From: Kineococcus xinjiangensis
Lineage (GTDB): Bacteria; Actinomycetota; Actinomycetes; Actinomycetales; Kineococcaceae
DNA: 64,000 nucleotides
Reading direction: 5' to 3'
Assembly (NCBI RefSeq): GCF_002934625.1
Contig: NZ_PTJD01000011.1
Span: 62,001 to 126,000, forward strand
Under the pieces are notes generated by a model. That model worked only from the letters and a program-made list of their open reading frames with translations. It searched no databases and was not told the DNA's origin. Positions 21,862-50,596 of this stretch are shown here, piece by piece (positions within the stretch are counted from its first letter, which is position 1; the number at the start of each line of letters is the position of its first letter). Both the position numbers and the translations under genes were made by a program.

Positions 21862-21924
21862 CCCCGGCCAGAGCCTAGGAGATCTCCGGCGCCGGCGGGA
21901 GGGGGAGCGGGCCGTCGGCGCGCC

Positions 21925-22854
21925 TCAGCTCTCCGGCGCCAGCGGTACGGCCTCGGGCACGAGGCCGAGCAGGGCGTCGCTGACCTCCGCCGCCACGGTG
22001 GCGAACGCCTTGGTGCGGCTGTCGCCCCGCCGGTCGTAGACGGCCGTGGACACGGCGTCGACGTCGATCAGCGGGCGGGCCGCGACGCCGGGCAGCCGGG
22101 TGAGACGGGTTCCGGAACCGACGCTGCACGCCAGCAGCCCCTGGCGCACCGCAGCGGGCACCGCCTCCTCGAAGGACATGACGGGCAGCTCGCGCCGGTC
22201 CAGGTCGATGCCGTCGGCGCGCAGGTCGGCCATCGACATGAGCGCCTGGGCGTGCTCCGGCCACTCCTCCGCCCCGACCCAGGTCCGCTCGCAGACGTCC
22301 GCCACGCTCAGCTCCGATGCCTGCGCGAGGTCGTCGTCGGCGCCGAGGACGATCACGCGACGTTCCGCGTACAGCGGTGTGCGGGCGTCGTCCGGCAGGC
22401 CCGGCCCCCGCCCGAGGATCACGTCGAGGTCGGGCTGCTCCGCCCCCCAGGGGTCCGCGAGCTCCAGGGTGCGGACCTCGAGCTGCAGGTCGGGGTGGCG
22501 GGCACGGAAGGCGTGGACGATGGGCCCGGTCAGCTCCGCGGCCGCCCGCGGGCCCAGGTACAGCCCCAGCACGAGCCGGTGGCGCGACGGCTCGTCGCGC
22601 GCGGTGTCCGCGGCCGCCCGGAAGCGCTCCCCCGCGGCGATGAGCCGCCGGGCCTCGGGAACCAGCGCACGCCCCGACTCGGTGAGGTCCACCCGGCGGC
22701 TGGTGCGGTCGAAGAGCCGCACGCCGAGGTCGCGCTCGAGGCGGCGGATCGCGGCGGACAGGGTGCTCTGGTCGATGTAGAGGCGGCCCGCTGCGCGGGT
22801 GAAGTGCAACTCCTCCGCGAGGACGGTGAAGTAGCGGAGTTGCTGCAGGTCCAC
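21925..22854 (-). CDS. LysR-family regulator, tandem copy B
   Basis: 309 residues, same layout as copy A (VDLQQLRYFTVLAEELHFTRAA, LYIDQSTLSAAIRRLERDLG, VYDRRGDSRTKAFATVAAEV). GTG start chosen by alignment with copy A; upstream frame is filler. A perfect 20-base palindrome lies 33 bases upstream and is the natural candidate for its operator. Effector and targets unknown. Divergence between the copies is mostly in the effector-binding part, so they may sense different ligands. Confidence 0.9.
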   Translation of the reverse strand: MDLQQLRYFTVLAEELHFTRAAGRLYIDQSTLSAAIRRLERDLGVRLFDRTSRRVDLTESGRALVPEARRLIAAGERFRAAADTARDEPSRHRLVLGLYLGPRAAAELTGPIVHAFRARHPDLQLEVRTLELADPWGAEQPDLDVILGRGPGLPDDARTPLYAERRVIVLGADDDLAQASELSVADVCERTWVGAEEWPEHAQALMSMADLRADGIDLDRRELPVMSFEEAVPAAVRQGLLACSVGSGTRLTRLPGVAARPLIDVDAVSTAVYDRRGDSRTKAFATVAAEVSDALLGLVPEAVPLAPES

Positions 22855-22887: not shown

Positions 22888-22907
22888 CCCTGTCAACGTT
22901 GACAGGG
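22888..22907. promoter_or_regulatory. Perfect 20-bp palindrome before LysR copy B
   Basis: CCCTGTCAACGTTGACAGGG. It holds a TTGACA -35-like hexamer on both strands. Position just upstream of LysR copy B suggests an autoregulatory operator. It overlaps the stop of the small gene that precedes it. Confidence 0.7.
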
Positions 22908-23228
22908 CCCCGCCCTCTTCCCCGATCGCGAGGCGGGGTGCATCCCGGGCGTGTCCCGCTGCTCCCCCGTGGGCGTCAGTCCCGCCCCGGCGCCTCCCGG
23001 GCCCGCAGGCCGGGGCGCGCGCGGGGCAGGTGCGCCCCCGGCGGAGGCCCGCCCGCCGCAGCGGAGGGTGGGGGCGTCGGCGGCGTGCTCGATGCGGAAC
23101 AGCCGCACCCGGCGCACCGCCGGGGCGTCCTCGGCCACCGCGTACGCCGACGCCCGGCAGCGCGACTCGCCGCCGTCGGCGAGGACCTCGCGGACGAGGC
23201 GCTCGTGCACGGCGTCCGGGCCACTCAC
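22893..23228 (-). CDS. Small hypothetical protein at the end of the T4SS-like minus operon
   Basis: 111 residues, no recognised domain. The first 57 residues look like real protein (VHERLVREVLADGGESRCRA, VRRVRLFRIEHAADAP); the second half is Pro/Ala/Gly-rich and may be an open frame by chance in GC-rich DNA. Support is the GTGA overlap with the stop of the preceding gene. The stop codon lies inside the LysR palindrome. Real gene likely, exact C-terminus uncertain. Confidence 0.5.
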   Translation of the reverse strand: MSGPDAVHERLVREVLADGGESRCRASAYAVAEDAPAVRRVRLFRIEHAADAPTLRCGGRASAGGAPAPRAPRPAGPGGAGAGLTPTGEQRDTPGMHPASRSGKRAGPCQR

Positions 23229-23692
23229 GACGGGAACCGTCCCCGGTAGGTGGCCAGCACCGCCTCGTAGTCGGCGTCGTCGATGAGGTCGGCGTCGAGG
23301 GCCCGGCCCACCTGGTCGTCGAAGGAACCCGGGTTCTCCAGGTACAGATCGTCGCCCTCGTGCTCGGGCAGCTCCCCGGGCGGCGCGTACTCCCAGCGGC
23401 CCAGCTCCTCCAGCATCTGCCCACGCGGGATCAGGCCCGCGGCGTAGCGCTGGGCGATCCGGTAGGCCGTGTCGTCGCTGAAACCGCCCGGAACCGGCCC
23501 GACGGAGGGGTCGTCCCGCAGTTCGGCGAAGCGCTCGTGCCAGCGCCGCACCACGTGCTGCACCTCGTGCTCCGGGGTGCCACCGGTCAGCATCGCCCGC
23601 ACCAGCCGCACCACGTCCCGGTGCGCGGCGGCCTCACGCGCGACCGCCCTGACCAGCATCGCCCTCAGCGGGTCGGTGGCCTGTTCCGGCAT
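23225..23692 (-). CDS. Conserved-looking hypothetical protein, 155 residues
   Basis: Soluble, acidic, mostly helical: AVAREAAAHRDVVRLVRAML, HEVQHVVRRWHERFAEL, then SDDTAYRIAQRYAAGLIPRG and an acidic tail (ALDADLIDDADYEAVLATYRG). No signal or membrane segment and no family that I recognise. It lies 80 bases after the ParA-like gene and overlaps the next small gene by four bases, so it belongs to the minus operon of the secretion-like locus. Could be an accessory, regulator or substrate; nothing decides this. Confidence 0.75.
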   Translation of the reverse strand: MPEQATDPLRAMLVRAVAREAAAHRDVVRLVRAMLTGGTPEHEVQHVVRRWHERFAELRDDPSVGPVPGGFSDDTAYRIAQRYAAGLIPRGQMLEELGRWEYAPPGELPEHEGDDLYLENPGSFDDQVGRALDADLIDDADYEAVLATYRGRFPS

Positions 23693-23772
23693 GTCTCTCC
23701 TCCTGCTCTCGTCGCGGAGCCCGCTCGTCCCCGCGCCCTTCCCCGTCCTCACGACCCGCGTGGCTGCCGCCG

Positions 23773-25308
23773 TCACAGCCCGTTCGCGACCGTCGCACAC
23801 ACCCTCAGCCAGGCGTGGCGGCTCTGCGCCGTCAGGGCGGTGAAGTCCACGGGGCCGCCGGAGACGAGCGACGGGTCGTGCGGGACGTCCACGACCGCCC
23901 GGGTGAGGCGGTTGAAGTGCTCGTGCAGCCGGCCCCGCAGGGCCGGGTCGGGCGTGCGGGCGGGCGAACTGAGCACGGTCACGGCGTGGGTGATGAGGTC
24001 CGCGCTGCCCGCGGCGCGCAGGGCGTCGACCAGCCACGCCGCCGACTGCGCGGTGTCCTCCCGCACCGTGGAGACGATGACGAGCTGGTCGGCCGCGCGC
24101 ACCGCCGCCTGCCAGTTGCTGGCCCGCATGTTGTTCCCCGTGTCGACGACCATGACGCGGTAGAACCTCGACAGGCTGGCGTGCAGGCGCTCGAAGGCCG
24201 CGGCGTCGATGCCGGCCGACGAGGCGGCGTCCTCGTCGGAGGCCAGGACGTCGAAGTGCGCGGCGCCCTGCGCGCGGACGTAGCGGTCCAGGTCGCCGAT
24301 GCGCGAGGTGCGGGCGTCGCCGTAGGAGTCCAGGTCGCGGAGCAGGTCCACCGCGGTGCGGTGGTGCCGTGCCGGGTTCGCCCGCCAGCCGAGGGTTCCG
24401 CGGGTCTCGTTGTTGTCCCACGCCAGGGTGGAACCACCGCGGTGCAGGCCGAACGTCGCCGCCATCAGCAGGGTGGCAGTGGTCTTGTGGGCGCCCCCCT
24501 TGGGGTTCACCACGACGATCGTGCGAGGGCCGTCGAAGCTGCGCTGGACGGCCTGCACCGCCATCCGGTGGCGCATCTCCGCGACGCCCGGTCCCGGTGA
24601 GACGAGCCCTCCGGTGAGCTTGCGGACCGTCGAGCGCCACCCGGAGCCGGCCGGGGCCACCGCGTCCGGCCGGCGGCCCGCGATGAGGTCGTCCAGGGTC
24701 GGCGGTGGACCGTCGCCGGTTCCTGCCACGGCCGGCGTGGCAGACGCGGGAGCGCCGACCGGGAACTCCGCGACCGGGAACTCCGCGACCGGAACCTGCG
24801 GAACGGGGACCTCCGCGGGTGCGGGCGCCTCGTGCGCCACCGCGTCCTCCGGGGCCCGGACTTCCTCCGGCACCCGGACTTCCTCCGGCGGCGCCGACGA
24901 GGGTCCGGGGGCTCGTCCGTCCCGGGGGGCCGGGACCGCGGCGACGGGCGCCACTCGGTCCGCGACCGGTTCCACGACCGGCCCCTGGTGGGGCTGCGGA
25001 ACACCCCCGGGTGCTGCGCGCCCCGTGCCGGGCGCCGGATCCGTCGCCTCCTCGACCCGGCCGTCGGGGTGGACGAGGAGGTTCCACTCCCCGTCCGGGT
25101 CGACGGCGGCGACGTGCACGGGCCTGCCCAGGGCGTCCGCGGCGTGCAGCGTCACGAACTCCAGGACGGCCCGGCGCGCGGAGGCGACGTCGGCGGCCGC
25201 GACGGGCTGCACCACACCGTTGATGGAGACCTCGGCGCTGGCGTCCGCGCGCACCACCACGGTGATGCACGGCCAGGTGCGGGCGTCGAGGGGTTCGGCG
25301 ACCGTCAT
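23773..25308 (-). CDS. ParA/MinD-like ATPase of the T4SS-like locus
   Basis: 511 residues. N-terminal 70 residues form a small domain (ITVVVRADASAEVSINGVVQ). A Pro/Ala/Val-rich linker with repeats such as PVAEFPVAEFPV covers about 80-215. C-terminal SIMIBI-class ATPase domain (about 255-510): VVVNPKGGAHKTT is a deviant Walker A whose usual Gly before Lys is His, with the signature first Lys kept; then DNNETRGTLGWR and VVDTGNNMRASNW (Walker B-like). Such ATPases position complexes on membranes or nucleoids. Related proteins occur beside TraG/VirB4-type genes in actinobacteria. Not a chromosome ParA: no ParB beside it. Confidence 0.85.
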   Translation of the reverse strand: MTVAEPLDARTWPCITVVVRADASAEVSINGVVQPVAAADVASARRAVLEFVTLHAADALGRPVHVAAVDPDGEWNLLVHPDGRVEEATDPAPGTGRAAPGGVPQPHQGPVVEPVADRVAPVAAVPAPRDGRAPGPSSAPPEEVRVPEEVRAPEDAVAHEAPAPAEVPVPQVPVAEFPVAEFPVGAPASATPAVAGTGDGPPPTLDDLIAGRRPDAVAPAGSGWRSTVRKLTGGLVSPGPGVAEMRHRMAVQAVQRSFDGPRTIVVVNPKGGAHKTTATLLMAATFGLHRGGSTLAWDNNETRGTLGWRANPARHHRTAVDLLRDLDSYGDARTSRIGDLDRYVRAQGAAHFDVLASDEDAASSAGIDAAAFERLHASLSRFYRVMVVDTGNNMRASNWQAAVRAADQLVIVSTVREDTAQSAAWLVDALRAAGSADLITHAVTVLSSPARTPDPALRGRLHEHFNRLTRAVVDVPHDPSLVSGGPVDFTALTAQSRHAWLRVCATVANGL

Positions 25309-25339
25309 GGGTCTCCTTCCTGCGTTGGGTCGGGGGCCG

Positions 25340-26392
25340 TCAGCCGAGAGGGGCGCCGCGTTGGGCCATGAAGGGTTCCGGGTCGACCTTCGTGTCGCGG
25401 AGGTGCACCTCGAAGTGCAGGTGGCAGCCGCTGCCCACGCCGTTCGCACCGACACGTGCGATCTGCTGCCCCGCGGAGACCTGCTCGCCCACCCGGACGA
25501 GGAGGTCCTTCGTGTACATGTGCCCGTACCAGGTCACGACGTCCCCGCCGTGGTCGATGACGATGGCGTTGCCGAAGCCGCTGGCGGGCCCGGACCGGAC
25601 CACCACGCCACCGGCGGCGGCGTAGATGGGCCCGTTGCAGCCGCCACCGCCGAGGTCCGTTCCCTTGTGGAAGCTGCTCGCACCGGGCGCGGGGGGAGGC
25701 CGTGGCCCGTAGTCGCTGGTGACGGGGCCCGACGACGGCCGGGTCCAGCCCTGCTCGGAAGGCGACGAGACGCTGCTCGTCGTGCACTCGGGGCTGCCGT
25801 TGACCGCCACCTCCCCCGGCACCACCACGGTGCCGGACAGCGCCTGCACGATCCTCACCGCATCGTTCCAGTGCTTCGCGTAGTGGAAGGGGTCCTTGTT
25901 CCGCTGGGTGCGGTGGGCCGCGAGGGTCGGCGGGAGGGTCTGCCAGCCCCGCACCTGCACGAGTGCCTCGAAGAAGTTCGTGGCGGAGATCGTGGGGTTC
26001 ATGCGGTCGGAGTAGGAACCCCACGCCCCGTCGTCGCGCTGCTGGAACAGCCCCCGGGAATCGGGCCCCACCTCGTCCCCGTGGTCCAGGACCCGGAGGG
26101 TGGACTCCCCGATGGCTGTCATCACGCCGATCGTCTGAGCGCGCTGGTCGAGCCCGAGCTGCTTCGCCGCGTTCATGATGAGCGCGGCGTTCTCGAGCTG
26201 CTTGCGGTCGTACGCACCGACGTTGCCGGGCGGCAGGGTGGACAGGTCCACCACGACCCCCGGACCGGTCGGGCCGCAGAGCGCGCCACCGGCATCGCCC
26301 CGCGCTGCGGACATGGTGAGGACGGCGGTGAAACCCACGACGGCCCCGAAGGGCAGCAGGAGCACCACCAGGAGTGCTGCGAGGAGCTTCAC
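25340..26392 (-). CDS. Lytic transglycosylase-M23 peptidase fusion (VirB1-like wall hydrolase)
   Basis: 350 residues with two predicted peptidoglycan-cutting modules. Residues 1-25 form a signal anchor (KLLAALLVVLLLPFGAVVGF). About 60-170 is lysozyme-like: AIGESTL with the catalytic Glu, then SRGLFQQRDDGAWGS. About 235-345 is an M23 LytM-type endopeptidase with zinc ligands in HKGTDLGGGG and HLHFEVH. A transglycosylase plus M23 pair is what Gram-positive conjugation systems use to open the wall. GTG start overlaps the lipoprotein stop (GTGA). Confidence 0.92.
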   Translation of the reverse strand: MKLLAALLVVLLLPFGAVVGFTAVLTMSAARGDAGGALCGPTGPGVVVDLSTLPPGNVGAYDRKQLENAALIMNAAKQLGLDQRAQTIGVMTAIGESTLRVLDHGDEVGPDSRGLFQQRDDGAWGSYSDRMNPTISATNFFEALVQVRGWQTLPPTLAAHRTQRNKDPFHYAKHWNDAVRIVQALSGTVVVPGEVAVNGSPECTTSSVSSPSEQGWTRPSSGPVTSDYGPRPPPAPGASSFHKGTDLGGGGCNGPIYAAAGGVVVRSGPASGFGNAIVIDHGGDVVTWYGHMYTKDLLVRVGEQVSAGQQIARVGANGVGSGCHLHFEVHLRDTKVDPEPFMAQRGAPLG

Positions 26393-26967
26393 AGCCCTTC
26401 CTCCGGCGCCGTGACCAGCTCGGCCAGCCAGGGCGAGTCCGCGCCGGCACGGGACAGGAGGACCTCGTGCGGTCCGGCGTCGGTGGGAACCACCACGACG
26501 GCGAGGTAGGCGGAACGGTCGTCGACCAGGGTTCCCGCTCCGAGGACGCGCGTCGCGGGAATGTTGCGGGGGTCGGTCCCCTGGTGGGCGAAGGCGCCCT
26601 GCGGTGTCAGCAGGGGCGCGAGGCCCGCCATCCACTGCTCCTCGGGGAGGTCCGGGCGGGCGAACGCCCGCACCGCGGCCTCGGCCCGCTCGAGAGCAGC
26701 GGCGCGGGACGCGTCGTCCCAGGTGGGCGAGGGCAGCGGTTCGGGGAGGACGTGGTCCGCGTCGGTGTGCCCGTGCGCCTGCCCGTCCGCTGCGTGGCCG
26801 TCGACCGCGGGACCCGGTGCGGCTGCCCCCTCGCCACCGGGGACGGGCTCACCGGTGCCCGGCACCGACGGGGCGGCCACCTGCCCCTCGGTGCCGGCTC
26901 CGCACCCGGTCAGCAGGACAGCGAGCAGGCAGGCCGCGAGGGGGACGGGGAAACCGGCGCGCGGCAT
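26389..26967 (-). CDS. Lipoprotein with VirB8/TcpC-like soluble domain
   Basis: 192 residues. Lipobox LLTGC (Cys at about 22) after a short signal peptide. Gly/Pro/His-rich linker to about 75. Compact C-terminal domain (about 85-190): AAVRAFARPDLPEEQWMAGLAPLLT, then strands RVLGAGTLVDDRSAYLAVVVVPTDAG. This helix-then-sheet pattern suggests an NTF2-like fold as in VirB8/TcpC; that is inference without a search. First gene of the minus operon, followed by the wall hydrolase with a GTGA overlap. Anchored outside the membrane. Confidence 0.8.
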   Translation of the reverse strand: MPRAGFPVPLAACLLAVLLTGCGAGTEGQVAAPSVPGTGEPVPGGEGAAAPGPAVDGHAADGQAHGHTDADHVLPEPLPSPTWDDASRAAALERAEAAVRAFARPDLPEEQWMAGLAPLLTPQGAFAHQGTDPRNIPATRVLGAGTLVDDRSAYLAVVVVPTDAGPHEVLLSRAGADSPWLAELVTAPEEGL

Positions 26968-27016
26968 GGCGGAACCTCCGGATGCTCAGCAGGGCGGGGC
27001 CCGTGCGGTGGGCGGC

Positions 27017-27052
27017 GCGTCACGATCGGCCGCCGCGTCACGATCGGCCGCC
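27017..27052. repeat. 18-bp direct repeat in the divergent promoter region
   Basis: GCGTCACGATCGGCCGCC occurs twice without a gap; each copy contains CGATCG. Possible regulator binding pair or simple tandem duplication. Confidence 0.7.
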
Positions 27053-27207
27053 GCGGCGCGGACCGGGCCCGGCCACCGTCGACGAGCGGTCTCCCCATGC
27101 TCGGTGGTGGACGGTCGGTGACGCCGCCGTCCGACCGGCCGTCGCCCGATCAGCACATCGGATTCACCCCGGTGACTGTGCGTTGCGCCATCCGGAGGTA
27201 GGGCTGC

Positions 27208-27235
27208 TGGACAACCCCGGGATTCTCCGTAGCTT
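27208..27235 (+). promoter_or_regulatory. Putative promoter of the plus-strand T4SS-like operon
   Basis: TGGACA (five of six to TTGACA) and TAGCTT with a 16-base spacer, about 70 bases before the first GTG. Same -10-like hexamer as the GH43 promoter at 11115. Confidence 0.45.
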
Positions 27236-27304
27236 CGAAGAGGAGCCGAGCCGTCGACCGGCACACGAGGCCCACCCACCGTCACCCCCTCCGAGGAGCG
27301 TCCA

Positions 27305-27940
27305 GTGCCGCACGCCGCAAACCCGTGGCTTGCCCGGCAGCCGGCGGACCTGGTGGCGCGAACCGGGGCGCACCCGCCCGCGTCGCCACCGGAACCGCAC
27401 CTCCCACCGCCCGCCCTGCTCGCACCCCAGCCGGGGATCGTGGCACCGCCCAGGCCGGACCGGCTCCCGCGCCGGCCCGTGGCCTGGGGGCCGGCGCTGT
27501 GGGTCGTGGGGGCCCACGGTGGTTCGGCGGAGTCGACGCTGGCGGGTCTGCTGCCCGGCGCCGCCGCGGCGGGACACGCCTGGCCGCAGCCGCCCGGTGG
27601 TCCGGACGTCCCGGTGCTCCTGGTGGCACGCAGCGACGCGAGGGGGCTGCGCGCGGCCCAGCACGCCGCCACCGAGTGGGCGGCGGGCGTGGTCGCCGGG
27701 GTGGAACTGCTGGGGCTCGCCGTCGTGGCCGACGCTCCCGGGAAACCGCCCCGCCCCCTGCGGCAGTTCGCCGCGCTGGTGGCCGGAGGCGTTCCCCGCC
27801 TGTGGCACCTGCCGTGGGTCGACGCCTGGCGCATCGGTGAGCAGCCTGTCCTGGCCGCAGCCCCCGGGGAGTTCCGCCGTCTCGCGGCGGACCTGCGGTC
27901 CCTCGTCCCCCCGACCGCCGCGGCCCGCGGCCCCTACTGA
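27305..27940 (+). CDS. First gene of plus T4SS-like operon: degenerate P-loop-like protein
   Basis: 211 residues. Pro-rich first 55 residues, then ALWVVGAHGGSAESTLAGLL, which resembles a worn Walker A (GxHGGxxxST) followed by LLVARSDARGLRAAQHAATEW and VVAGVELLGLAVVADAPGKPP. This pattern suggests a catalytically weak relative of ParA-like ATPases. Soluble. GTG start with GAGGAG eight bases upstream. Its place at the head of the operon suggests an assembly or regulatory part. Family name not certain. Confidence 0.78.
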   Translation: MPHAANPWLARQPADLVARTGAHPPASPPEPHLPPPALLAPQPGIVAPPRPDRLPRRPVAWGPALWVVGAHGGSAESTLAGLLPGAAAAGHAWPQPPGGPDVPVLLVARSDARGLRAAQHAATEWAAGVVAGVELLGLAVVADAPGKPPRPLRQFAALVAGGVPRLWHLPWVDAWRIGEQPVLAAAPGEFRRLAADLRSLVPPTAAARGPY

Positions 27941-27951
27941 AGGAGAACACC

Positions 27952-28263
27952 ATGATGCTGGCCCAGCTCGTGATGGACGCGCAGGCGACCATCACGCCGA
28001 TGATCGACCCCGTCGCCCTCGGCACCATGGCGCAGCCGCAGACCGCCGAGCCGCCGGGCATCGCCGGCTTCAAGAACATCCTGAGCTGGGCGATGTGGAT
28101 CGCCCTCTCCGTCTGCGTCCTGGGAATCATGGTGACCGGCGCCATGATGGCGATCGCCTCTCGCGACGGCCGCGGCGGCGAGCACGGCGCCCGCCTGCTC
28201 TGGGTCCTCGTCGGCTGCGTCGTGATCGGGTCCGCCTCCGGATTCGTCAACGTCCTGGTCTGA
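27952..28263 (+). CDS. Two-helix VirB2/TrbC-like pilin candidate
   Basis: 103 residues. N-terminal 45 residues with a Met/Gln-rich part (MAQPQTAEPPG), then two hydrophobic helices (FKNILSWAMWIALSVCVLGIM and LLWVLVGCVVIGSASGFVNVL) joined by a short charged loop ASRDGRGGEHGAR. Size, two helices with a basic cytosolic loop and position before VirB8/VirB6-like genes fit a VirB2/TrbC-type channel or pilus subunit. ATG with GGAGAA site 7 bases upstream. Inferred by layout, not by a family motif. Confidence 0.8.
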   Translation: MMLAQLVMDAQATITPMIDPVALGTMAQPQTAEPPGIAGFKNILSWAMWIALSVCVLGIMVTGAMMAIASRDGRGGEHGARLLWVLVGCVVIGSASGFVNVLV

Positions 28264-28282
28264 CGGACGGGACGCAGGCAGC

Positions 28283-29026
28283 GTGGACGGGCAGGACGCG
28301 GTAGCCCCGGACGAGGAGAGTCCCTGGACGTCGACGGGCTTCCTCCTCGCCGCGGCGGTGGTCGCGGCCCTCGCCGTCACCGGCGTGGTGATCATGGTGA
28401 TGGGGTCGTGGCGCGCAGACGCAGCGGACGCCGCCGGGGTTCCCGCCCCGGTCGCCGTGGAGACCGCCGCGACCTCGCCGGCCCGCAACACGCCCGGCTG
28501 CTCGCTGCCGGCGGGGGACCCGGTCCTGCCGCACACGGCTCCGGCGGGTTCGCGCTGGGTCCCGGCCGGGGGCATGACCGTTCCGGAGGCCCCGCGCACC
28601 CACGGCCCGGCCGTGGTGGCACCCTCGGGGTTCCGCTCCTGCTACGCCGCCTCCCCCACGGGCGCCCTGCACGCGGCGGTGGGGGCGTGGGCCGCCACCA
28701 CCGGGCCCGCGCTGCAGGACCTCGCCGCTGGAGCAGCAGAGGGCCACGGCCGCGACGCCTTGCAGCGCCGGCTCGGTGAGGGGAGCGCCCCCGTCGGCCC
28801 CCCGCCCCTGACGGTCGTCGGGTTCACCTTCGGGGAGTGCGATGCGCGGGCCTGCACGGTCGACGTCGCGTTCGAGACCGCAGCCGGCCAACCCGTGCAC
28901 GCCCTCGTCCCCCTCGCGCGGGAGCGCGAGGACTGGCGGGTGCTCCTGCCGCCGGACGGCGACCTCGCCGGCACCCTCCGCCGCCTTCCCGACCTGGCCG
29001 GCTTCATCCCGTGGACAGGAGAGTGA
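28283..29026 (+). CDS. Single-pass membrane protein, VirB8-like
   Basis: 247 residues. Short cytosolic tail, one TM helix (TGFLLAAAVVAALAVTGVVIMVMG, about 17-40), then an outside part with a Pro/Ala linker and an alpha/beta domain (about 120-240: YAASPTGALHAAVGAWAATTG, LTVVGFTFGECDARACTVDVAFET, WRVLLPPDGDL). The single N-terminal anchor plus outside domain is the VirB8/TcpC plan. GTG start 20 bases after the pilin-like gene. Cys pairs at CDARAC may be a disulfide. Confidence 0.78.
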   Translation: MDGQDAVAPDEESPWTSTGFLLAAAVVAALAVTGVVIMVMGSWRADAADAAGVPAPVAVETAATSPARNTPGCSLPAGDPVLPHTAPAGSRWVPAGGMTVPEAPRTHGPAVVAPSGFRSCYAASPTGALHAAVGAWAATTGPALQDLAAGAAEGHGRDALQRRLGEGSAPVGPPPLTVVGFTFGECDARACTVDVAFETAAGQPVHALVPLAREREDWRVLLPPDGDLAGTLRRLPDLAGFIPWTGE

Positions 29027-29030
29027 TCCC

Positions 29031-30434
29031 GTGGCCGAACTGACCGACTGGGCGTTGGAGCTGGCCGGCATGCCGAGCATCCCGTCGTTCGGCAGCGTCA
29101 TGAAGGACCTCTACGGGGCGATGCTGGAGTCCCTGGGGCAGGTCGTCGCCGCCCTGGGGACCTACTGGCTGCGCATGCCCGCCATCCCCGTCGCGGAGAC
29201 GGGCACCGGGCAGTTCCACGCCACCGCCGAAGTGCAGACCCTGCGCGGCATCCTCACGCCGGTGACGGCCGCTTCGGCCGTGCTGGCGGTCATCATCGGC
29301 GGCGCCAGGATGGCCTGGCAGCGGCGGGCCGATCCCGGCATCGACCTGGTCCGGTCCCTCATGACGCTGACCCTGGTGATGGGCGCGAGCGCCGGGGTGA
29401 TCCAGGTCGCGGTCATGGCCTGCGACGAGTTCGCGACGGGCGTCGTCGAGAGCGCCCTCAAGGCACCGCAGCCCGGGTCCTCGGCCTCGGCCTCGACGGC
29501 CCCCACGACCAGCCAGGTGCTGGGGGGCCGGGTGGTCGACCTGATGACGATCGGAACGGGCGCCACCACGGCGGGCGCGGTCCTGGTCGCGCTGCTGCTG
29601 GTCGTCGTCGCCGTGGTGGTCTCGCTGATCCAGGTCATGCTCATGGTGGTGCGCGACGGGCTCCTGGTCATCCTGGCCGGCATCCTGCCGCTGGCGGCGT
29701 CGTTCACGAACACCGAGATGGGCCGCGCCTGGTTCCGCAAGTGCCTGGGGTGGTTGCTCGCCTTCCTGCTCTACAAGCCCGCGGCGGCCGTCGTGTACGC
29801 GACGGCGTTCCTGCTGGCCGGCAGCAGGCCGATTCCGGCCGAGGGCGGCGAACTGCTCAAACCCGTCACCGGCCTCGTCCTCATGCTGCTCGCCCTCGTC
29901 GCCCTGCCGGCGCTGATGAAGTTCGTGGCGCCCGTCGTCGCGGCCACCGCGAGCGGGGCGACCGCGAGCGCGGCGGGGGGTGCGGCGTCACCGCTGCCGA
30001 TGGGCGCCAAGGCGCTGGAGCTCAAGGACGCCTCCGGGATGCGCCAGTCCTCGCAGGGCTCCGCGGGTCCCGAGGGGAGCCGGCCGCAGGGCGGTCCGTC
30101 GCCGGCGGGCGGGGCGGGCAGGGCTCAGCCACCGGCACCGCGTCCGGCCCCGGCGGGACCCGCCGGCGGCGGCGCGGCAGCAGGCGGCGGCGCGGCGACC
30201 AGCGGCGCAGCAACAGGCGGCGGCGCAGCAACAGGCGGCGGCGGCGGCGCAGCAGGCGGCGGCGGCGGCGCAGCAGCAGGCGGCGCGGCAGGAGCGGCCG
30301 GCCCGGTCGGCATCGGCCTGCTGGTCGCCGCCGAGGCGGTCAAGGCAGTCGACAAGGGCATGAAGACGGCCGCCGCCATCGGGCGCGCGGCGGCGGAGGA
30401 GACGACGGGAGAGGGACCCAGTGGCAGTCGCTGA
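29031..30434 (+). CDS. VirB6/TrbL-like polytopic channel protein
   Basis: 467 residues. About seven hydrophobic helices between residues 70 and 320 (TPVTAASAVLAVIIGGARM, LVALLLVVVAVVVSLIQVML, LLVILAGILPLAASF, CLGWLLAFLLYKPAAAVVYA, LVLMLLALVALPALMKF). The LYKPAAAVVYA region is typical of TrbL/VirB6 proteins of actinobacteria. The C-terminal 120 residues are Gly/Ala/Pro low complexity encoded by GCGGCGGC-rich repeats, ending in a small helical segment. Forms the membrane channel in T4SS. GTG start with AGGAG upstream. Overlaps the next gene by 14 bases. Confidence 0.88.
   Translation: MAELTDWALELAGMPSIPSFGSVMKDLYGAMLESLGQVVAALGTYWLRMPAIPVAETGTGQFHATAEVQTLRGILTPVTAASAVLAVIIGGARMAWQRRADPGIDLVRSLMTLTLVMGASAGVIQVAVMACDEFATGVVESALKAPQPGSSASASTAPTTSQVLGGRVVDLMTIGTGATTAGAVLVALLLVVVAVVVSLIQVMLMVVRDGLLVILAGILPLAASFTNTEMGRAWFRKCLGWLLAFLLYKPAAAVVYATAFLLAGSRPIPAEGGELLKPVTGLVLMLLALVALPALMKFVAPVVAATASGATASAAGGAASPLPMGAKALELKDASGMRQSSQGSAGPEGSRPQGGPSPAGGAGRAQPPAPRPAPAGPAGGGAAAGGGAATSGAATGGGAATGGGGGAAGGGGGAAAGGAAGAAGPVGIGLLVAAEAVKAVDKGMKTAAAIGRAAAEETTGEGPSGSR
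30170..30300. repeat. Gly/Ala-coding trinucleotide-type repeat in virB6-like gene
   Basis: Runs of GGCGGCGGCGCAGCAACA-type units encode GGGAATGGG-type stretches in the cytosolic tail. Length is likely to vary between strains. Confidence 0.8.
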
Positions 30435-31923
30435 GCGGCAACCCCGCACCTACGGGAACTGGCGCAAGCCGCAGTCCGCCGGGCTGGGGCAGCTCGGCAC
30501 CCTCGGCACGGCCATCCTGCTGGTGGGGTTCATCGCCATGATCATGACGATCATGGCCGCCGGCATCGGGCCGGCCCTCGCCGTCGCGGCCCTCTTCGCG
30601 GCCTTCCTCGGAACCCTGGTCGTCCGCGACCGCCACGGCCGCAGCGGCCTTCAGCGCATGGGCACCGCCCTCGGCAGCAGGCACGCCCGCGCCACCGGCA
30701 CGAGCCTCTACCGCTCCGGCCCGCTCGGGCGCACCCCGTGGGGGACGTTCCAGCTGCCCGGTCTCGCGGCGGCCTCGGAACTGACCGAGTGGCAGGACTC
30801 CTACGGTCGCCCCTTCGCCCTCCTGCACGTCCCCGCGACGAACCACTACACCGTCGTGCTCGCCACCGAACCCGACGGCGCCTCCCTCGTCGACGAGGAG
30901 CAGGTCGACTCCTGGGTGGCGCACTGGGGGGCGTGGCTGAACTCCCTCGGCAGCGAGCCCGGTGTCGTCTCCGCGGCCGTCACCGTGGAGACCGCCCCGG
31001 ACTCCGGGGCCCGCCTGCGCCGGGAGGTCGACGGCAACCTCCACCCCGACGCCCCCGCCCTGGCCCGGGCCATGCTGCAGGAGGTCGTGACGGCCTACCC
31101 CGAGGGTTCCGCGTCCGTCCGCGCCTGGGTGAGCCTCACGTTCACCGGCACCAGCAAGTCCGGCGCCCGCCGCAAGGACGCACCCGAGATGGGCCGGGAA
31201 CTGGCCTCCCGGCTGCCCGCCCTCACCCACAGCCTCCACGCCACCGGAGCGGGTGCCGCCCGCCCCGTCGGCGCCCGCGACCTCTGCGAGGTCGTGCGCA
31301 CCGCCTACGACCCGGACGCGGCCAGGCTCATCGACGCGGCGCACGCCGCGGGGGAACCACCCCTGCTGGACTGGCAGAACGTGGGACCCGGCTTCGCCGA
31401 AGCCCACCACGGCCACTACCACCACGAGAACGCCGTGTCCGTGACCTGGTCCATGACCTCCGCCCCCCGCGGCGTCGTGTACTCCTCGGTCCTCAGCCAG
31501 CTCCTGGCGCCCCACCCCGACGTCGACCGCAAGCGCGTGACCCTGCTCTACCGCCCGTTCGACCCGGCGCGCTCGGCGCGCATCGCCGAGCAGGACAAGC
31601 GCAACGCCGACTTCAAGACGACGACGTCGCAGCGCCCGTCCGCGCGCACCCTCGCCGCGGCGCGCTCGGCCGCGGCGACCGCGGAGGAGGAGGCGCGCGG
31701 GGCGAACCTCGTGAACTTCGGCCTCCTCGTCACCGCCACCGTCACCCGCCCCGACCGGCTGCCCGAGGCCGTCGCCGCGGTGGACAACCTCTCCGCGACG
31801 GCCCGGCTGATGGTCCGCCCCGTCTACGGCTCGCAGGACAGCGCCTTCGCCGCCGCGCTGCCGCTGGGCCTCGTCCTGCCCACGCACCTGAAGGTGCCCG
31901 CCGAGATCCGGGACTCCCTCTGA
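30421..31923 (+). CDS. SCO6880-type protein: VirB3-like helices plus VirB4 N-terminal-like domain
   Basis: 500 residues. N-terminal TM hairpin (about 22-70: LGTLGTAILLVGFIAMIMTIM and GPALAVAALFAAFLGTLVV) followed by VRDRHGRSG, resembling PrgI/VirB3. Then a large soluble domain without a P-loop, holding WVAHWGAWLNSLGSEPGVV and VNFGLLVTATVTRPD, as in the N-terminal half of VirB4 proteins. The next gene carries the ATPase half. I therefore read it as a VirB3-VirB4N fusion (inference; SCO6880-like family in Streptomyces). GTG start, 14-base overlap with the VirB6-like gene; TGATG junction with the ATPase gene. Confidence 0.85.
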   Translation: MAVAERQPRTYGNWRKPQSAGLGQLGTLGTAILLVGFIAMIMTIMAAGIGPALAVAALFAAFLGTLVVRDRHGRSGLQRMGTALGSRHARATGTSLYRSGPLGRTPWGTFQLPGLAAASELTEWQDSYGRPFALLHVPATNHYTVVLATEPDGASLVDEEQVDSWVAHWGAWLNSLGSEPGVVSAAVTVETAPDSGARLRREVDGNLHPDAPALARAMLQEVVTAYPEGSASVRAWVSLTFTGTSKSGARRKDAPEMGRELASRLPALTHSLHATGAGAARPVGARDLCEVVRTAYDPDAARLIDAAHAAGEPPLLDWQNVGPGFAEAHHGHYHHENAVSVTWSMTSAPRGVVYSSVLSQLLAPHPDVDRKRVTLLYRPFDPARSARIAEQDKRNADFKTTTSQRPSARTLAAARSAAATAEEEARGANLVNFGLLVTATVTRPDRLPEAVAAVDNLSATARLMVRPVYGSQDSAFAAALPLGLVLPTHLKVPAEIRDSL

Positions 31924-33437
31924 TGGCCACGCCCCGCACGAAGGCCCCCCGGGGGAAGGCCCCGTCCGCCGCACCACGTCCCGGCCCCCGGGGCTGGCCG
32001 GGACGTGGCCGCGGCAGTTCCGCCTACGTCCAGGCGCCCGACGAGTGGCGCGGCACCACCGTGCAGGTCTGCGGCCTGTGGCCCTTCGCCGCCGGGACCG
32101 GTTCCCCCATGACCGGCGTGCCGATCGGGCGGAACCTGCTGTCCGGCGCGACGCTGTGCTGCGACCCGATCTCCTGGTTCCAGCGGGCCAAGCTGATCTC
32201 CAACCCCTCCGCGTTCGTCCTCGGCAAGCCCGGCCTCGGCAAGTCCACCATCGTGCGCCGGATGGCACTCGGCCTGACCGGCTACGGGGTGCTGCCGCTG
32301 GTGCTGGGGGACCTGAAGCCGGACTACGTCGACCTCATCGAGGCCGTCGGCGGGCAGGTCATCACCCTGGGCCGCGGGCGCTCCCACCTGAACATCCTCG
32401 ACCCCGGCGAGGCCGCCGCCGCCGCGCTGCGCCTCACCGGGAGCGCGCGGCAGGGTGTGCTCGCCGACGCCCATGGGCGCCGCCACGCGATGGTGTCCTC
32501 CCTCATCACCATCATGCGCTCCGCCCCGCCCACCGACCGGGAGGAGACCATCCTCGACCGGGCGCTGCGCGTCCTCGACGACCGTCACGACGGGGTCCCG
32601 GTGCTCGGGGACCTGCTCCGCGTCGTCCAGGAGGCACCGGAGGACCTGCGCCACGTCGCCCTCGACCGCGGGGACATGCGCCGCTACCAGGACATCACCG
32701 AGGGGCTCGAGGCCACCCTCATCGGCCTGGCCGGCGGCGGTCGCCTCGGGGAGATCTTCTCCAAACCCACCACCGTGCCGATGCGGCGGGACCGCCCCGT
32801 CGTCTTCGACGTCTCCAGCATCGACGACTCCGAGATGGACCTGCAGGCCGCCGTCCTGCTGGCGTGCTGGTCCTACGGCTTCGGAGCCGTCAACGTCGCC
32901 CACGCCCTGGCCGACGCCGGGCTGGAACCGCGGCGGCACTACTTCGTCATCCTCGACGAACTGTGGCGGGCACTGCGCGCCGGGCGCGGGATCGTCGACC
33001 GCGTCGACGCCCTGACCCGCCTCAACCGCCAGCGCGGCGTGGGCATGGCGATGATCACCCACACCATGTCCGACCTGCTCTCCCTGCCGAGCGAGGAGGA
33101 CCGGATGAAGGCGCGGGGGTTCGTCGAGCGCTCCGGCATGGTCGTCTGCGGCGGGCTGCCCGCCGCGGAGATGCCCATGCTGAACTCCGCCATCCCCTTC
33201 TCCCGCGCCGAGCAGGACCTGCTCATCGGCTGGCAGGACCCCCCGGCGTTCGACGCCGTCGCCGGCAAGGAGGCCGAGCCCCCGGGCCGCGGGAAGTTCC
33301 TCGTCAAGGTCGGCGGTCGCCCGGGCATCCCCGTGCAGGTGCAGCTCACCTCCGCCGAGCGCGGCATCAACGACACGAACAAGATGTGGCACACCGCCTC
33401 CGGTTCCGAGGTGGCGGGCGGGGAGGGCGCCGCGTGA
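31923..33437 (+). CDS. VirB4-type ATPase (C-terminal ATPase half)
   Basis: 504 residues. Walker A LGKPGLGKST (about 99-108), Walker B HYFVILDELWRAL (about 339-351), MAMITHTMSDLL (sensor-like) and an arginine-containing end segment. First 95 residues are basic and Pro-rich, then VCGLWPFAAGTGSPMTGVPIG, the usual lead into the VirB4/TraC P-loop domain. Lacks the VirB4 N-terminal domain, which the previous gene seems to supply. Powers substrate transfer or pilus assembly at the inner membrane. ATG overlaps the preceding stop; GTGA overlap with the next gene. Confidence 0.93.
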   Translation: MATPRTKAPRGKAPSAAPRPGPRGWPGRGRGSSAYVQAPDEWRGTTVQVCGLWPFAAGTGSPMTGVPIGRNLLSGATLCCDPISWFQRAKLISNPSAFVLGKPGLGKSTIVRRMALGLTGYGVLPLVLGDLKPDYVDLIEAVGGQVITLGRGRSHLNILDPGEAAAAALRLTGSARQGVLADAHGRRHAMVSSLITIMRSAPPTDREETILDRALRVLDDRHDGVPVLGDLLRVVQEAPEDLRHVALDRGDMRRYQDITEGLEATLIGLAGGGRLGEIFSKPTTVPMRRDRPVVFDVSSIDDSEMDLQAAVLLACWSYGFGAVNVAHALADAGLEPRRHYFVILDELWRALRAGRGIVDRVDALTRLNRQRGVGMAMITHTMSDLLSLPSEEDRMKARGFVERSGMVVCGGLPAAEMPMLNSAIPFSRAEQDLLIGWQDPPAFDAVAGKEAEPPGRGKFLVKVGGRPGIPVQVQLTSAERGINDTNKMWHTASGSEVAGGEGAA

Positions 33438-35182
33438 GCGCCACCGGCAGGGGGGAGCGCGCAGGCCTCGAACCGCAGACGCTGCTGCTCGCCGTCGGCC
33501 TCGCCGCCGCCGTCACCGTGACCGCGGCGGTCAACGTGCCGCTGCGGCTGGCCGCGGCCCTCGCCGGCGCACCCGCCGACCTGCCCGCGAACCCCTTCGA
33601 GCTGACGCTGGCCGTGCTGACCGGACGCGTCGCCTGGCCGGCCACCGCGACGTGGCTGCTCGCTGCCTCCGCCGTGCTGCTGGCGCTGACCGCGGGCGCG
33701 GCGGTGACGGGCACCCGCCGGGCGCGGGGTTCGCGCACCCGCGTGGACCGCGCGGCGCCGCGGATGGGGCGCGGCCGCGACCTGGCGTCCCTCACCGCAC
33801 GCGGCGCCGCCGGCACCGCCGCCCGCCTGGGCGTGCAGGGCTCCCCCGGCCTCCCCGTCGCCGTCACGATCCCCGGCGGGCAGGTCCTGCACTCCTCCTG
33901 GGAGGACGTCTCCGTCGACATCTGGGGCCCCCGCACGGGCAAGACCACCTGCCGGGCGATCCCCGCGATCCTCGCCGCGCCCGGCGCCGTGCTGGCCACC
34001 TCCAACAAGCGCGACATCGTCGACGCGACCCGCGATCCCCGCGCCGCCGGTGGCGAGGTCTGGGTGTTCGACCCGCAGGGCATCGCCGACGAACCGCCGC
34101 GGTGGTGGTGGAACCCCCTCAGCTACGTCACCGACGAGGTGAGGGCGTCGGTGCTCGCGGAACTGTTCGCCACCGCCTCCCGCGAACCGGGCGCGCGCAC
34201 CGACGCGTTCTTCGACCCCGCGGGGCGGGAACTGCTCGCGGGGCTCCTGCTCGCCGCCGCCCTGGACGCGCGCCCCCTGGACCAGGTGTACCTGTGGCTC
34301 ACCGATCCCACCGACGACGAACCCGCGGACGTCCTCCGCCGGCACGACTTCGCACTGAGCGCCGCCGCCGTGGCCGAGGTCGTGAACTCCCCGGAGAAGC
34401 AGCGCGCCGGCGTCTACGGCACCGCGAAGCAGTCCGTCGCGTTCCTCACCAACCGGCAGGCGCTGCGCTGGGTGGTCCCCGACGGCCCCGCCGACGGGCG
34501 CCGGCAGTTCGACCCGCACGCGTTCGTCCGCACCCGCTCGACGCTCTACAGCCTCTCCCGCGAGGGCGGCGGCTCGGCCGGCCCGCTCGTGACCGCGCTG
34601 ACGGTCGCCGTCACCGAGGCCGCCGAGGACCTGGCGAAGCGCTCCCCCGGCGGGCGCCTGCCCGTGCCGATGGTGGCGGTGCTCGACGAGGCCGCGAACG
34701 TCTGCCGCTGGCGGGACCTGCCGAACCTCTACAGCCACTACGGCTCCCGCGGCATCTGCATCATGACGATCCTGCAGTCCTGGTCGCAGGGCGTGGAGGT
34801 GTGGGGCCGCGAGGGCATGCGGAAGCTGTGGTCGGCGGCGAACGTGCGCGTCTACGGCGGCGGCGTCGCCGAGGTGGAGTTCCTCTCCGAGCTGTCCCAG
34901 CTCATCGGCGACACCGAGGTGAGCGCCGTCTCCGTCTCCCGCGGCAAGGGCGGGCGCTCGGTCAGCCGCTCGACGCGGCGGGAGCGGATCCTCGACGTCG
35001 CCGACCTGGGCTCGCTGCCCCGTGGCCGGGCCGTCGTCATCGCCTCCGGCGCGCCCCCCACGCTGGCGCGCACCCTGCCGTGGAGCGAGGGACCGCACGC
35101 GGCGGCGGTGGCGGCCTCGATCAGCGCCCACGACCCCGCCGCCCGCCACCCCGGCGGCGCGCCGGACGGGGTGCGGCGGTGA
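33434..35182 (+). CDS. VirD4/TraG-type coupling ATPase
   Basis: 582 residues. Two N-terminal TM helices (LLLAVGLAAAVTVTAAVNV and ATWLLAASAVLLALTAGAAV). Walker A DIWGPRTGKTT near 165, family segment VLATSNKRDIVDATRDP, Walker B MVAVLDEAANVCRW near 412 and LQSWSQGVEVWGREGMRKLW. Type IV coupling proteins pick substrates, DNA or protein, and feed them to the channel. GTG start overlaps the VirB4-like stop. No relaxase gene is beside it, which is unusual for a conjugative T4CP. Confidence 0.95.
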   Translation: MSATGRGERAGLEPQTLLLAVGLAAAVTVTAAVNVPLRLAAALAGAPADLPANPFELTLAVLTGRVAWPATATWLLAASAVLLALTAGAAVTGTRRARGSRTRVDRAAPRMGRGRDLASLTARGAAGTAARLGVQGSPGLPVAVTIPGGQVLHSSWEDVSVDIWGPRTGKTTCRAIPAILAAPGAVLATSNKRDIVDATRDPRAAGGEVWVFDPQGIADEPPRWWWNPLSYVTDEVRASVLAELFATASREPGARTDAFFDPAGRELLAGLLLAAALDARPLDQVYLWLTDPTDDEPADVLRRHDFALSAAAVAEVVNSPEKQRAGVYGTAKQSVAFLTNRQALRWVVPDGPADGRRQFDPHAFVRTRSTLYSLSREGGGSAGPLVTALTVAVTEAAEDLAKRSPGGRLPVPMVAVLDEAANVCRWRDLPNLYSHYGSRGICIMTILQSWSQGVEVWGREGMRKLWSAANVRVYGGGVAEVEFLSELSQLIGDTEVSAVSVSRGKGGRSVSRSTRRERILDVADLGSLPRGRAVVIASGAPPTLARTLPWSEGPHAAAVAASISAHDPAARHPGGAPDGVRR

Positions 35183-35532
35183 CGGCGGGGATCCCGGATC
35201 CGGTCCACCCGTCGGTCGACGTGTTCGTGCGCGACCACCTCGCGGTGCTGTACCGGCGCCACCTCGACGGCCGCAACCGCACCTGGTGCCCCCAGTGGTG
35301 GAGGCACGGCGAGGCCGTCCTGCGCCTCGACGCCCTCTGGCGCAGCTGGGAGTTCCTGCGACTGGACCCGGACACGGGGATGTCGCTGTGGATGCGCGAC
35401 CACCTCGACCCGCACATGGCCGTGCTCCTGGACCCCGAGGGGCCCTTCCGGGGCTGCTCACCGGACAAGGGCCACGCCGAGCGGCTGGTCGAACTGCCCG
35501 TCGAGGACCCGCCGCCGGGCATGTTCGGCTGA
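35179..35532 (+). CDS. DUF4913 protein
   Basis: 117 residues. Tryptophan-rich conserved core VFVRDHLAVLYRRHL, WCPQWWRHGEAVLRLDALWRSWEFLR and WMRDHLDPHMAVLLDPEGPF, the DUF4913 signature. Commonly encoded right after TraG/VirD4-type genes in actinobacteria, as here with a GTGA overlap. Cytosolic; may be an adaptor for the coupling protein, but its function is not known. Last gene of the plus operon. Confidence 0.9.
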   Translation: MTAGIPDPVHPSVDVFVRDHLAVLYRRHLDGRNRTWCPQWWRHGEAVLRLDALWRSWEFLRLDPDTGMSLWMRDHLDPHMAVLLDPEGPFRGCSPDKGHAERLVELPVEDPPPGMFG

Positions 35533-35550: not shown

Positions 35551-35700
35551 AGTGGTCTGGTGCAGGAGTTCGTGACCCGCCCCGGCAAGGCGGCGGCCGG
35601 GAGCCGATCGACCCCACCTGTCGACGCGGCCTCCGGCCCCTCAGCTGGATCCAGCCCGGCCTCCACCACGGCGGGTCACGAACCTTCGTGCCGGACCACT
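35551..35700. mobile_element. 150-bp element with imperfect terminal inverted repeats (MITE-like)
   Basis: The first 31 bases (starting AGTGGTC and ending TTCGTGACCCGCC) match the reverse complement of the last 31 at about 23 of 31 positions; the outer 7 and inner 13 are exact. The interior has no gene. No target duplication is clear. Its right end abuts CTAG and provides the stop codon (TAG) of the neighbouring minus-strand gene. A long-range hairpin terminator between convergent operons is an alternative. Confidence 0.5.
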
Positions 35701-37513
35701 AGCTGTACTGACCCCTGAGGTCGGTGGCGGACATCTCGAGCAGGGTGCCGGGCGCCGCCGGGGTGGTGTCGCGCAGCACGAAGGTCGACGGCATCTCGGG
35801 ATCGGGCTGGTAGGAGGTGTCGGCGGTCAGCTCGTCACCGACGGACAGCATCGACTCGAAGCCCGACTCCGTGACGCGGGTGGCTTCGGAGACGGAGCCG
35901 ATGTAGAGGAGGTCGTTGGCGTCGTAGTCGTAGAGGGCATCCGTGGTGACGATGGTGTCGTTCTCCTCGTCCACGACGAGGATGCCCTCGGCGTCACCCA
36001 GGTTGCCCTGCCCGGCCTCGGCCGGGAGGGTCTGCACCTTGCCGCCGACACCGAAGGCCTCGGTGGACAGGTTGTTCTCGTCGATCTCGAGGCTGGTGTC
36101 GTTGCCGGCGTCGACGAAGACGACCGGGTAGAAGGCCTCGACCGCGGTGGCGTCGGCCGTCACGGTGAAGCGCAGGGAGCCATCGGTCGCGGGTGCGATG
36201 CCACCGACGGTCGAGCCGGGGGAACCGACCTGAACACCGTTGACGACGGTGATGTCCCCGGCCACCGTGCCCGGGTCGATCAGGCCGCTGGTGCCCTGCT
36301 CGGTGAAGGTGTAGTAGCCGTTCTCGTCACCGCCGAGCTTCTCCGCGTTCACCAGGGTGATGCGGTACTCGTCGCCCGTCTCGAGGCCGGCGACGGTGTA
36401 GACGCGGGTTCCACCCCGGGCGAGCGTCTCGGTGCTGTACGGATCAACGTAGAAGCTCTCGTGCTGGAAGTGATCCCCGTCGCCCTCGGCGGCCGCGACC
36501 GCGGCGCTGACGACCGTCGGGTCGACGACGGCCACGCCGCCGAAGACGAAGCCCGGAGCGGTGAGGGTGCCGGCGTTGGCCTTGAGCCACCCGGTGGTGA
36601 CCGGTCCGAGGTCCGTCCCGGGGCGCGAGAGCAGCAGCGGGGCACCGGCGGCGCCGAGGAGGGGGCCGGCGATGAGCGCGTCGGCGAGGTCGTTGGCACC
36701 CAGGTTGCCGGTGCTGATGCCGCGGGCCAGGCCGATGGCATCGCCCTTGAAGACGCCCTCGGCGATCGCCCAGTCGGCGAAGGCGGCGGCGGTGCCGAAG
36801 CGGTCCTCGCCCTCGGCGCGGGCCTCCACGCCCAGCTCCATGGCGACCCCAGCGGAGACGGCGCCCCGCCCACCCAGCGCAACGACCTCGGCGGCCTCGA
36901 AGTACCCGGCGAGTGCGGCCGTCCCGGCCGGGGCCGAGTCCGGGCGGACCAGCAGGATCGGCGAGCCCGTCGCGGCGGCGACCGTGGAGGCCGTCAGCGC
37001 GTCGGCGATGCCGGTGAGCCCGTTGGCGACGAACACGTACGGAGCGGTCGAGCTCCTCGTGCGCGCGACGGCCGCGGCGGTGCCGAAGCGGTCGTCACCA
37101 CTGATGCGGGCGACGTTGTAGGGCTCCTTGAGGGCGTCCTCGACCTTCTGGCTCACGACTGCCGGGCCGCCGACGATGGTGATGTTCCGGACACCCAGCT
37201 CCTTGAGCGCATCCAGGGTGGAGTCCGGGATGGTGTCCCGCTCGGTGAGCAGGATGGGCTGGGCCAGCGAGGCCGCCGAGAGGGCGTCCACGTTGGAGAA
37301 GCCGTTGACGAGGACCACGGAGGTGGTGTCCTCGAAGGCGGCGGCGGCGAGGGCGGCCGTCTCGAAGCGGTCGTCCCCACCGATGCGGGTCTGCAGGTCG
37401 AAGCCTGCCGCCGCAGAGGCGGTGCCGGCGAAACCGGCAGAGGTCAGGCCGACGAGGGCCGCGACGCCGGCCCCGATGCCACGTCGGCGCAACCGGGAGG
37501 TTGCTGCGGTCAT
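35699..37513 (-). CDS. Secreted protein with three cell-wall-binding repeat 2 domains
   Basis: 604 residues. Signal peptide with cleavage near ASA-AA (about 35). Three CWB2 repeats begin RIGGDDRFETAALAAAAF, RISGDDRFGTAAAVAR and AEGEDRFGTAAAFADWA, each with a GG-type loop (TIVGGPAVVS, VALGGRGAVS, FGGVAVV). CWB2 modules hold proteins on wall polymers. C-terminal part (about 350-604) is beta-rich and acidic, with TYTVAGLETGDEYRITLVN and VVFVDAGNDTSLEI; no enzyme seen. Surface protein with unknown ligand. Stop codon formed at the edge of the adjacent inverted-repeat element. Confidence 0.9.
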   Translation of the reverse strand: MTAATSRLRRRGIGAGVAALVGLTSAGFAGTASAAAGFDLQTRIGGDDRFETAALAAAAFEDTTSVVLVNGFSNVDALSAASLAQPILLTERDTIPDSTLDALKELGVRNITIVGGPAVVSQKVEDALKEPYNVARISGDDRFGTAAAVARTRSSTAPYVFVANGLTGIADALTASTVAAATGSPILLVRPDSAPAGTAALAGYFEAAEVVALGGRGAVSAGVAMELGVEARAEGEDRFGTAAAFADWAIAEGVFKGDAIGLARGISTGNLGANDLADALIAGPLLGAAGAPLLLSRPGTDLGPVTTGWLKANAGTLTAPGFVFGGVAVVDPTVVSAAVAAAEGDGDHFQHESFYVDPYSTETLARGGTRVYTVAGLETGDEYRITLVNAEKLGGDENGYYTFTEQGTSGLIDPGTVAGDITVVNGVQVGSPGSTVGGIAPATDGSLRFTVTADATAVEAFYPVVFVDAGNDTSLEIDENNLSTEAFGVGGKVQTLPAEAGQGNLGDAEGILVVDEENDTIVTTDALYDYDANDLLYIGSVSEATRVTESGFESMLSVGDELTADTSYQPDPEMPSTFVLRDTTPAAPGTLLEMSATDLRGQYS

Positions 37514-43223: not shown

Positions 43224-43245
43224 CCGGGCAGCCGGGGCGGCCGGC

Positions 43246-43677: not shown

Positions 43678-43697
43678 GCGGGCGGAGCGCGGTCGTC

Positions 43698-43747: not shown

Positions 43748-43770
43748 CCACGGCTGGCTCGCGCTGTGGC

Positions 43771-48032: not shown

Positions 48033-48040
48033 GCCCACCT

Positions 48041-50580: not shown

Positions 50581-50596
50581 CCCCGCCCGCACAGCA

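Follow-up and report, generated by a model that had tools for sequence, protein, structure and literature searches.

Gene content of the locus

The window analyzed here is a 64,000-nucleotide stretch of the genome of Kineococcus xinjiangensis, a soil-type actinobacterium. Gene calling together with Pfam and NCBIfam profiles identified 12 intact genes of type IV secretion system (T4SS) type at positions 23225 to 35532, arranged in two divergent operons, in agreement with the gene order and families proposed in an earlier sequence-only reading and with its view that the locus forms a single, coherent chromosomal machine of T4SS type. An open reading frame (ORF) of 111 amino acids at 22893 to 23228 (minus strand), with which that reading began the module, has a coding score of 14.9, compared with >60 for its neighbors, and no Pfam family; it is probably not a gene and lies outside the module.

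Read from the center outward, the minus-strand operon encodes a lipoprotein (26389 to 26967) whose lipobox residue Cys22 is invariant in 34 homologues, a VirB1-like wall hydrolase (25340 to 26392) with an SLT-like N-terminal part and an M23 peptidase (Peptidase_M23, 7.4e-26), a ParA-like ATPase (23773 to 25308; NCBIfam ParA_partition, 2.7e-5; CbiA, 1e-3) with the motif KGGAHKTT and a long disordered N terminus, and a 155-amino-acid protein (23225 to 23692). The SLT part of the hydrolase gives a weak profile match, seen in a Nocardiopsis homologue only. The C-terminal 309 amino acids of the ParA-like protein are 69% identical to a protein encoded beside a Microbacterium plasmid T4SS, and homologues of the 155-amino-acid protein (38 to 53% identical) are found in four other T4SS loci (L077, L099, L114, and L125), two of which have a relaxase.

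The intergenic region between the operons (26968 to 27304) does not contain the small HTH (excisionase-like) gene of the plasmid relatives. On its far side, the plus-strand operon encodes, in order, a ParA-like DUF6668 protein (27305 to 27940; PF20373, 3.5e-12), a two-helix pilin-like protein of VirB2/TrbC type (27952 to 28263; T4SS_pilin, 8.8e-6; TrbC, 7e-4), a VirB8/TcpC-like membrane protein (28283 to 29026), a TrbL/VirB6 polytopic channel protein (29031 to 30434; PF04610, 9.7e-5), an SCO6880-family protein resembling VirB3 and the N-terminal part of VirB4 (30421 to 31923; NF042935, 4e-170), a VirB4-type ATPase (31923 to 33437; NF045971, VirB4-like CD1110, 4e-11), a VirD4/TraG coupling ATPase (33434 to 35182; TraG-D_C, 5e-34; T4SS-DNA_transf, 3e-20), and a DUF4913 protein (35179 to 35532; PF16259, 2e-38), which comes right after VirD4 in nearly all relatives.

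Predicted folds and motifs

Two VirB8-like proteins had been proposed. Predicted structure supports the assignment for the protein at 28283 to 29026: its AlphaFold model is confident (pLDDT 86), with one transmembrane helix (residues 18 to 50) and an NTF2-like alpha/beta domain, and the top Foldseek match, although nonsignificant, is the VirB8-like OrfG of ICESt3 (6zgn). For the lipoprotein, the lipobox was confirmed and the fold was not. No hhalign match to the other VirB8-like family was found, and homology between the two proteins was rejected on that ground; the lipoprotein is possibly a second VirB8/NTF2-like subunit. The DUF4913 protein is predicted to be all helical, in a model with no match in the PDB, and PDB sequence searches with VirB4, VirD4, the VirB8-like protein, and DUF4913 returned no match.

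The DUF6668 protein had been taken for a degenerate ParA. The Walker lysine is replaced by glutamate in 26 of 26 aligned sequences (GxHGGxGES/T), those from relaxase-bearing loci included, and a substitution that is family-wide rules out decay. Might DUF6668 be a pseudo-ATPase that partners the ParA-like protein?

Chromosomal setting

Core genes lie on both sides of the module, as the sequence-only reading had supposed from their housekeeping-like appearance. A kinase/regulator pair (18971 to 20886) on one side and a block running from bpa to serS (42621 to 51953) on the other are syntenic in sister genomes, and these flanks place the module on the chromosome. In the fetched stretches that span the gap between them (G003, G004, G008, and G011), the sisters carry unrelated genes that differ from genome to genome and never a T4SS. 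The module was therefore probably acquired, since it occupies a variable gap between syntenic flanks. Absence from sister strains with a clean empty site had been named as grounds against a resident machine; the locus is indeed missing from the gap, but other genes fill it and no clean empty site was seen. The search for relatives did not return a second genome of the genus.

Tandem duplicated LysR regulators (20917 to 22854; ∼73% nucleotide identity) directly adjoin the module. At the other end, a 150-nucleotide inverted-repeat hairpin with 31-nucleotide arms (35551 to 35700; very stable, z −6.3) follows the plus-strand operon and abuts the stop codon of a convergent CWB2 gene (35699 to 37513). 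It is present as a single copy in the genome, which excludes a repeated IS or MITE end; it may mark an element end, a bidirectional terminator, or something else. With 43 domain matches to its family in the genome, the CWB2 gene is unsupported as a dedicated substrate or adhesin.

Searches for a relaxase, an integrase, and element ends

No relaxase, integrase, tRNA, or att end had been visible near the locus, and dedicated searches upheld this. A six-frame search with the relaxase family profile gave no significant match in the window and the adjoining 17 and 20 kb on either side (∼101 kb); the same profile scores the relaxase of contig C19 of this genome at 1e-231. That relaxase is the sole PF03432 match in the whole genome, and TrwC and MobA_MobL relaxases, the other profile families searched, have no match anywhere in it. 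A relaxase hidden in the 155-amino-acid or ParA-like gene was rejected for want of profile support. No tRNA was found near the module, no direct repeats were found flanking it, and no nearby integrase rose above the family cutoff in a profile search confined to integrases other than serine recombinases; the nearest integrase-like match falls below that cutoff and lies ∼29 kb away, beyond core genes. An oriT remnant derived from C19 was rejected, as the matches listed included none to C19. Of the features that define an ICE, neither a relaxase in cis nor an integrase nor att or tRNA ends were found here. A relaxase elsewhere in the genome had been proposed as a sign of an ICE; one does occur, on C19, but neither it nor an integrase or att ends lie near the locus.

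The paralogous system on contig C19 and its relaxase

Contig C19 (49.9 kb) is plasmid-like and encodes a paralogous T4SS together with a MobC-like protein and the PF03432 relaxase, as well as a second VirD4-like gene, a primase-like protein, and ParA. From pilin to DUF4913 its gene order is that of the window module, and the two are ∼90% identical in VirB4, 74% in SCO6880, 71% in VirD4, and 39 to 59% in the other shared components (TrbL, 46%). Unlike the window, C19 has the relaxase, the MobC-like protein, an HTH gene, and the second VirD4-like gene; conversely, it lacks the ParA-like/DUF6668 pair. The window and C19 copies are sisters in the VirB4 tree (99% SH-aLRT), and the C19 system is the nearest relative found for the window module. 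Beside the C19 relaxase lies a gene (C19 12694 to 14757) of a family with no Pfam match; members of this family are also retained in some loci that have no relaxase (L097, L154, L084, L077, and L114).

Identity at fourfold sites between window and C19 is 0.67 for VirB4 and 0.59 for VirD4, compared with about 0.39 to 0.57 elsewhere. The raised synonymous identity of the VirB4 pair (window 31923 to 33437; C19 22344 to 24086) suggests a possible past exchange or recombination between the copies.

Actinobacterial plasmid relatives

The same two divergent operons and component families are found on a complete plasmid of Microbacterium sp. J1-1 and on Cryobacterium arcticum pP27867_2. In both, the first operon comprises M23, a small protein, and a ParA-like gene, with an HTH gene, and the facing operon comprises DUF6668, two small genes, a gene in the TrbL position, SCO6880, an ATPase, VirD4, and DUF4913. 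On pP27867_2, DUF4913 is followed by two hypothetical proteins, a relaxase, and MobC, a relaxase-MobC block that is missing from the window. The window differs further from both plasmids in its chromosomal location, its lack of the HTH gene, and its minus-strand gene order (lipoprotein, M23, ParA). VirB4 has matches in 478 plasmid records, and within the order, most strong homologues sit 5 to 12 kb from a relaxase.

The sequence-only reading had held that the locus differs in kind from conjugative systems. This view is not supported: actinobacterial plasmids carry the same two-operon module, and the C19 paralogue comes with MobC and a relaxase. Of an SCO6880/DUF4913-type conjugation system, the window holds the transport module genes and lacks the module of MobC and relaxase. 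As judged from gene content, its makeup is not unusual and presents no new architecture.

Integrity, composition, and evolutionary rates

All twelve ORFs are open, and the P-loop and metal motifs are present. The GC content at third codon positions (GC3) is 0.937 in the module, between the values of the C19 T4SS (0.891) and the chromosome (0.967); in SCO6880, VirB4, VirD4, and DUF4913, it is 0.958 to 0.967. Chromosome-like GC3 could also come from a high-GC donor. In three-way comparisons, unique changes are not consistently more numerous in the SCO6880 and VirD4 of the window than in the C19 copies; 1 of the 13 VirD4 outgroups gave a chi-square of 4.06, with more changes on the window side. 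VirB4 has fewer changes on the window side than on the C19 side, a test that, if VirB4 was exchanged with the plasmid copy, covers only the time since. These rates fit continued constraint on the window ATPases and do not date the loss of the relaxase.

Relaxase-free relatives in other Actinobacteria

Of the 80 close VirB4 relatives, 29 carry a relaxase within the fetched stretch, at a median distance of 4.1 kb downstream of VirB4. Over the ∼9 kb that follow VirB4, no relaxase was seen in 39, although some of them have one farther along the contig; L037 and L041 were covered by tblastn. The absence of a relaxase is scattered over the VirB4 tree, on which several changes are needed. Eleven genomes have a T4SS and no PF03432, TrwC, or MobA_MobL match: five of Nocardiopsis, two of Actinomyces, and one each of Marinactinospora, Geodermatophilus, Pseudoclavibacter, and a Cellulomonas MAG. 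Three Nocardiopsis loci (L095, L096, and L104) have flanks in common on both sides and a fourth (L110) on one side. In two Nocardiopsis species pairs, the machine genes have dN/dS ratios of 0.04 to 0.28. A protein of 368 to 447 amino acids encoded between VirD4 and DUF4913 in Nocardiopsis is fast evolving, with a dN/dS ratio of 0.55 in one pair, and is a candidate substrate or surface subunit. In Geodermatophilaceae (Geodermatophilus/Blastococcus; L105 and L118) and Georgenia (L116 and L134), on contigs that range from 84 kb to 1.4 Mb in length, the fetched stretch contains a VirB4 core without VirD4, DUF4913, or relaxase.

Directly after DUF4913, one Nocardiopsis locus that has no relaxase (L078, 13849 to 17463; also L081) encodes a nucleoside-hydrolase-family protein and two further proteins. 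These proteins are possible effectors.

Origin and function of the module

The reading that we favor, and consider probable, is that the locus is the transport module of an SCO6880/DUF4913-type conjugative plasmid or ICE, captured in a variable chromosomal gap without the DNA-processing module (MobC, relaxase, and associated protein). It draws on direct observations: the gene content, order, and homology of the locus, the absence of mob genes nearby, the complete paralogue on C19, and the same gap without the locus in sisters. Since a complete sister copy with a relaxase resides on a plasmid-like contig, capture of a plasmid module is a better reading of the chromosomal copy than a new kind of machine.

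We infer that the captured module still assembles into a channel that spans the wall. The M23/SLT protein would open the peptidoglycan; the pilin, TrbL, the VirB8-like protein, and the lipoprotein would form the conduit; SCO6880 and VirB4 would energize assembly; and VirD4 would recruit the substrate, perhaps together with DUF4913 and the ParA-like ATPase. Without a relaxosome of its own, the module would be limited to substrates provided in trans: most plausibly the C19 relaxosome or that of another mobilizable element, or else proteins that VirD4 recognizes. A functional channel with its substrate in trans is thus the most likely working model, with protein delivery and slow decay as live rivals; the candidates for what is moved are a trans-supplied relaxosome, proteins, or nothing.

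We regard it as rather unlikely that the module is instead a domesticated resident machine that exports host proteins or delivers effectors on contact, moves no DNA, and uses VirD4/DUF4913 as its substrate receptor. Intact motors, composition near that of the chromosome, and the lack of a rate excess would suit such a role, as would the 11 other genomes with a T4SS and no match to the three relaxase families, the Nocardiopsis locus kept at one site in several species under purifying selection, and the precedents of the MOBless T4SS (PMC3158045) and the Streptomyces cmdABCDEF operon (PMC2782261). However, no candidate substrate was seen beside the module, where the neighboring CWB2 gene comes from its 43-match family; sister genomes lack the locus in the gap; and the closest relative is a plasmid-like system. 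The resident machine of the sequence-only reading may hold, but for the window a capture that is recent or decaying, or a helper role in trans, may hold instead; the term is plausible for the wider relaxase-free group and unproven for the window. A broader version, to which we give similarly modest credence, places the window in a recurrent, unrecognized group of resident relaxase-free actinobacterial machines (Nocardiopsis, Georgenia, Geodermatophilaceae, Actinomyces, and the window's family), repeatedly derived from plasmid transfer modules and retained under selection for a role in protein delivery or for a cell-envelope or chromosome function.

It is doubtful, at about one chance in four, that the module is what is left, inert, of a conjugative element that had integrated here, lost its mob, replication, and partition genes only recently, and has yet to decay. 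The mob module and the HTH gene are missing, and relatives do hold remnants, one with only VirB4, VirD4, and DUF4913 kept (G053) and another reduced to a fragment with stops (G019), but the open ORFs, catalytic motifs, near-chromosomal GC3, and absence of rate acceleration in the window speak against it. A complete ICE with overlooked ends, relaxase, and integrase is very improbable and, although the module is of conjugative type, is disfavored by the absence of a relaxase match in the 101 kb, with the only PF03432 match on C19 and no TrwC or MobA_MobL, by the absence of a tRNA, flanking repeats, and a nearby integrase above the cutoff, and by the core genes on both sides.

Comparison with known systems

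The pairing of a relaxase-free chromosomal T4SS with a relaxase-bearing near paralogue in one cell offers a natural setting in which to ask whether transfer modules, once captured, come to serve plasmids as trans helpers or turn into protein-secretion machines. Further, Nocardiopsis and Geodermatophilaceae hold Gram-positive T4SS without a relaxase that are conserved between species, and we found no description of a relaxase-free T4SS machine in either group in the literature on such systems searched here.

The Streptomyces cmdABCDEF genes (SCO4126 to SCO4131), like the window, form a chromosomal cluster with a VirB4-like ATPase, and they are needed for normal sporulation (PMC2782261). SCO6878, SCO6880, and SCO6881 resemble CmdB, CmdC, and CmdD, and SCO6878 or SCO6881 null mutants lack the sporulation phenotype of cmd (PMC2782261). 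Compared with the window by description only, the cmd cluster differs in its reported makeup of five membrane proteins and one ATPase and in affecting sporulation and segregation.

Almost half of chromosomal T4SS have no relaxase nearby, and protein transport has been suggested for them (Guglielmini et al. 2011, PMC3158045). Such MOBless T4SS are defined by a neighborhood of 60 ORFs without a relaxase (PMC3158045). The window locus resembles them in having VirB4 with a coupling protein, a chromosomal location, and no relaxase in the neighborhood, and by the definition of the class, it fits as a member of this already known group, whose well-known examples are proteobacterial protein exporters.
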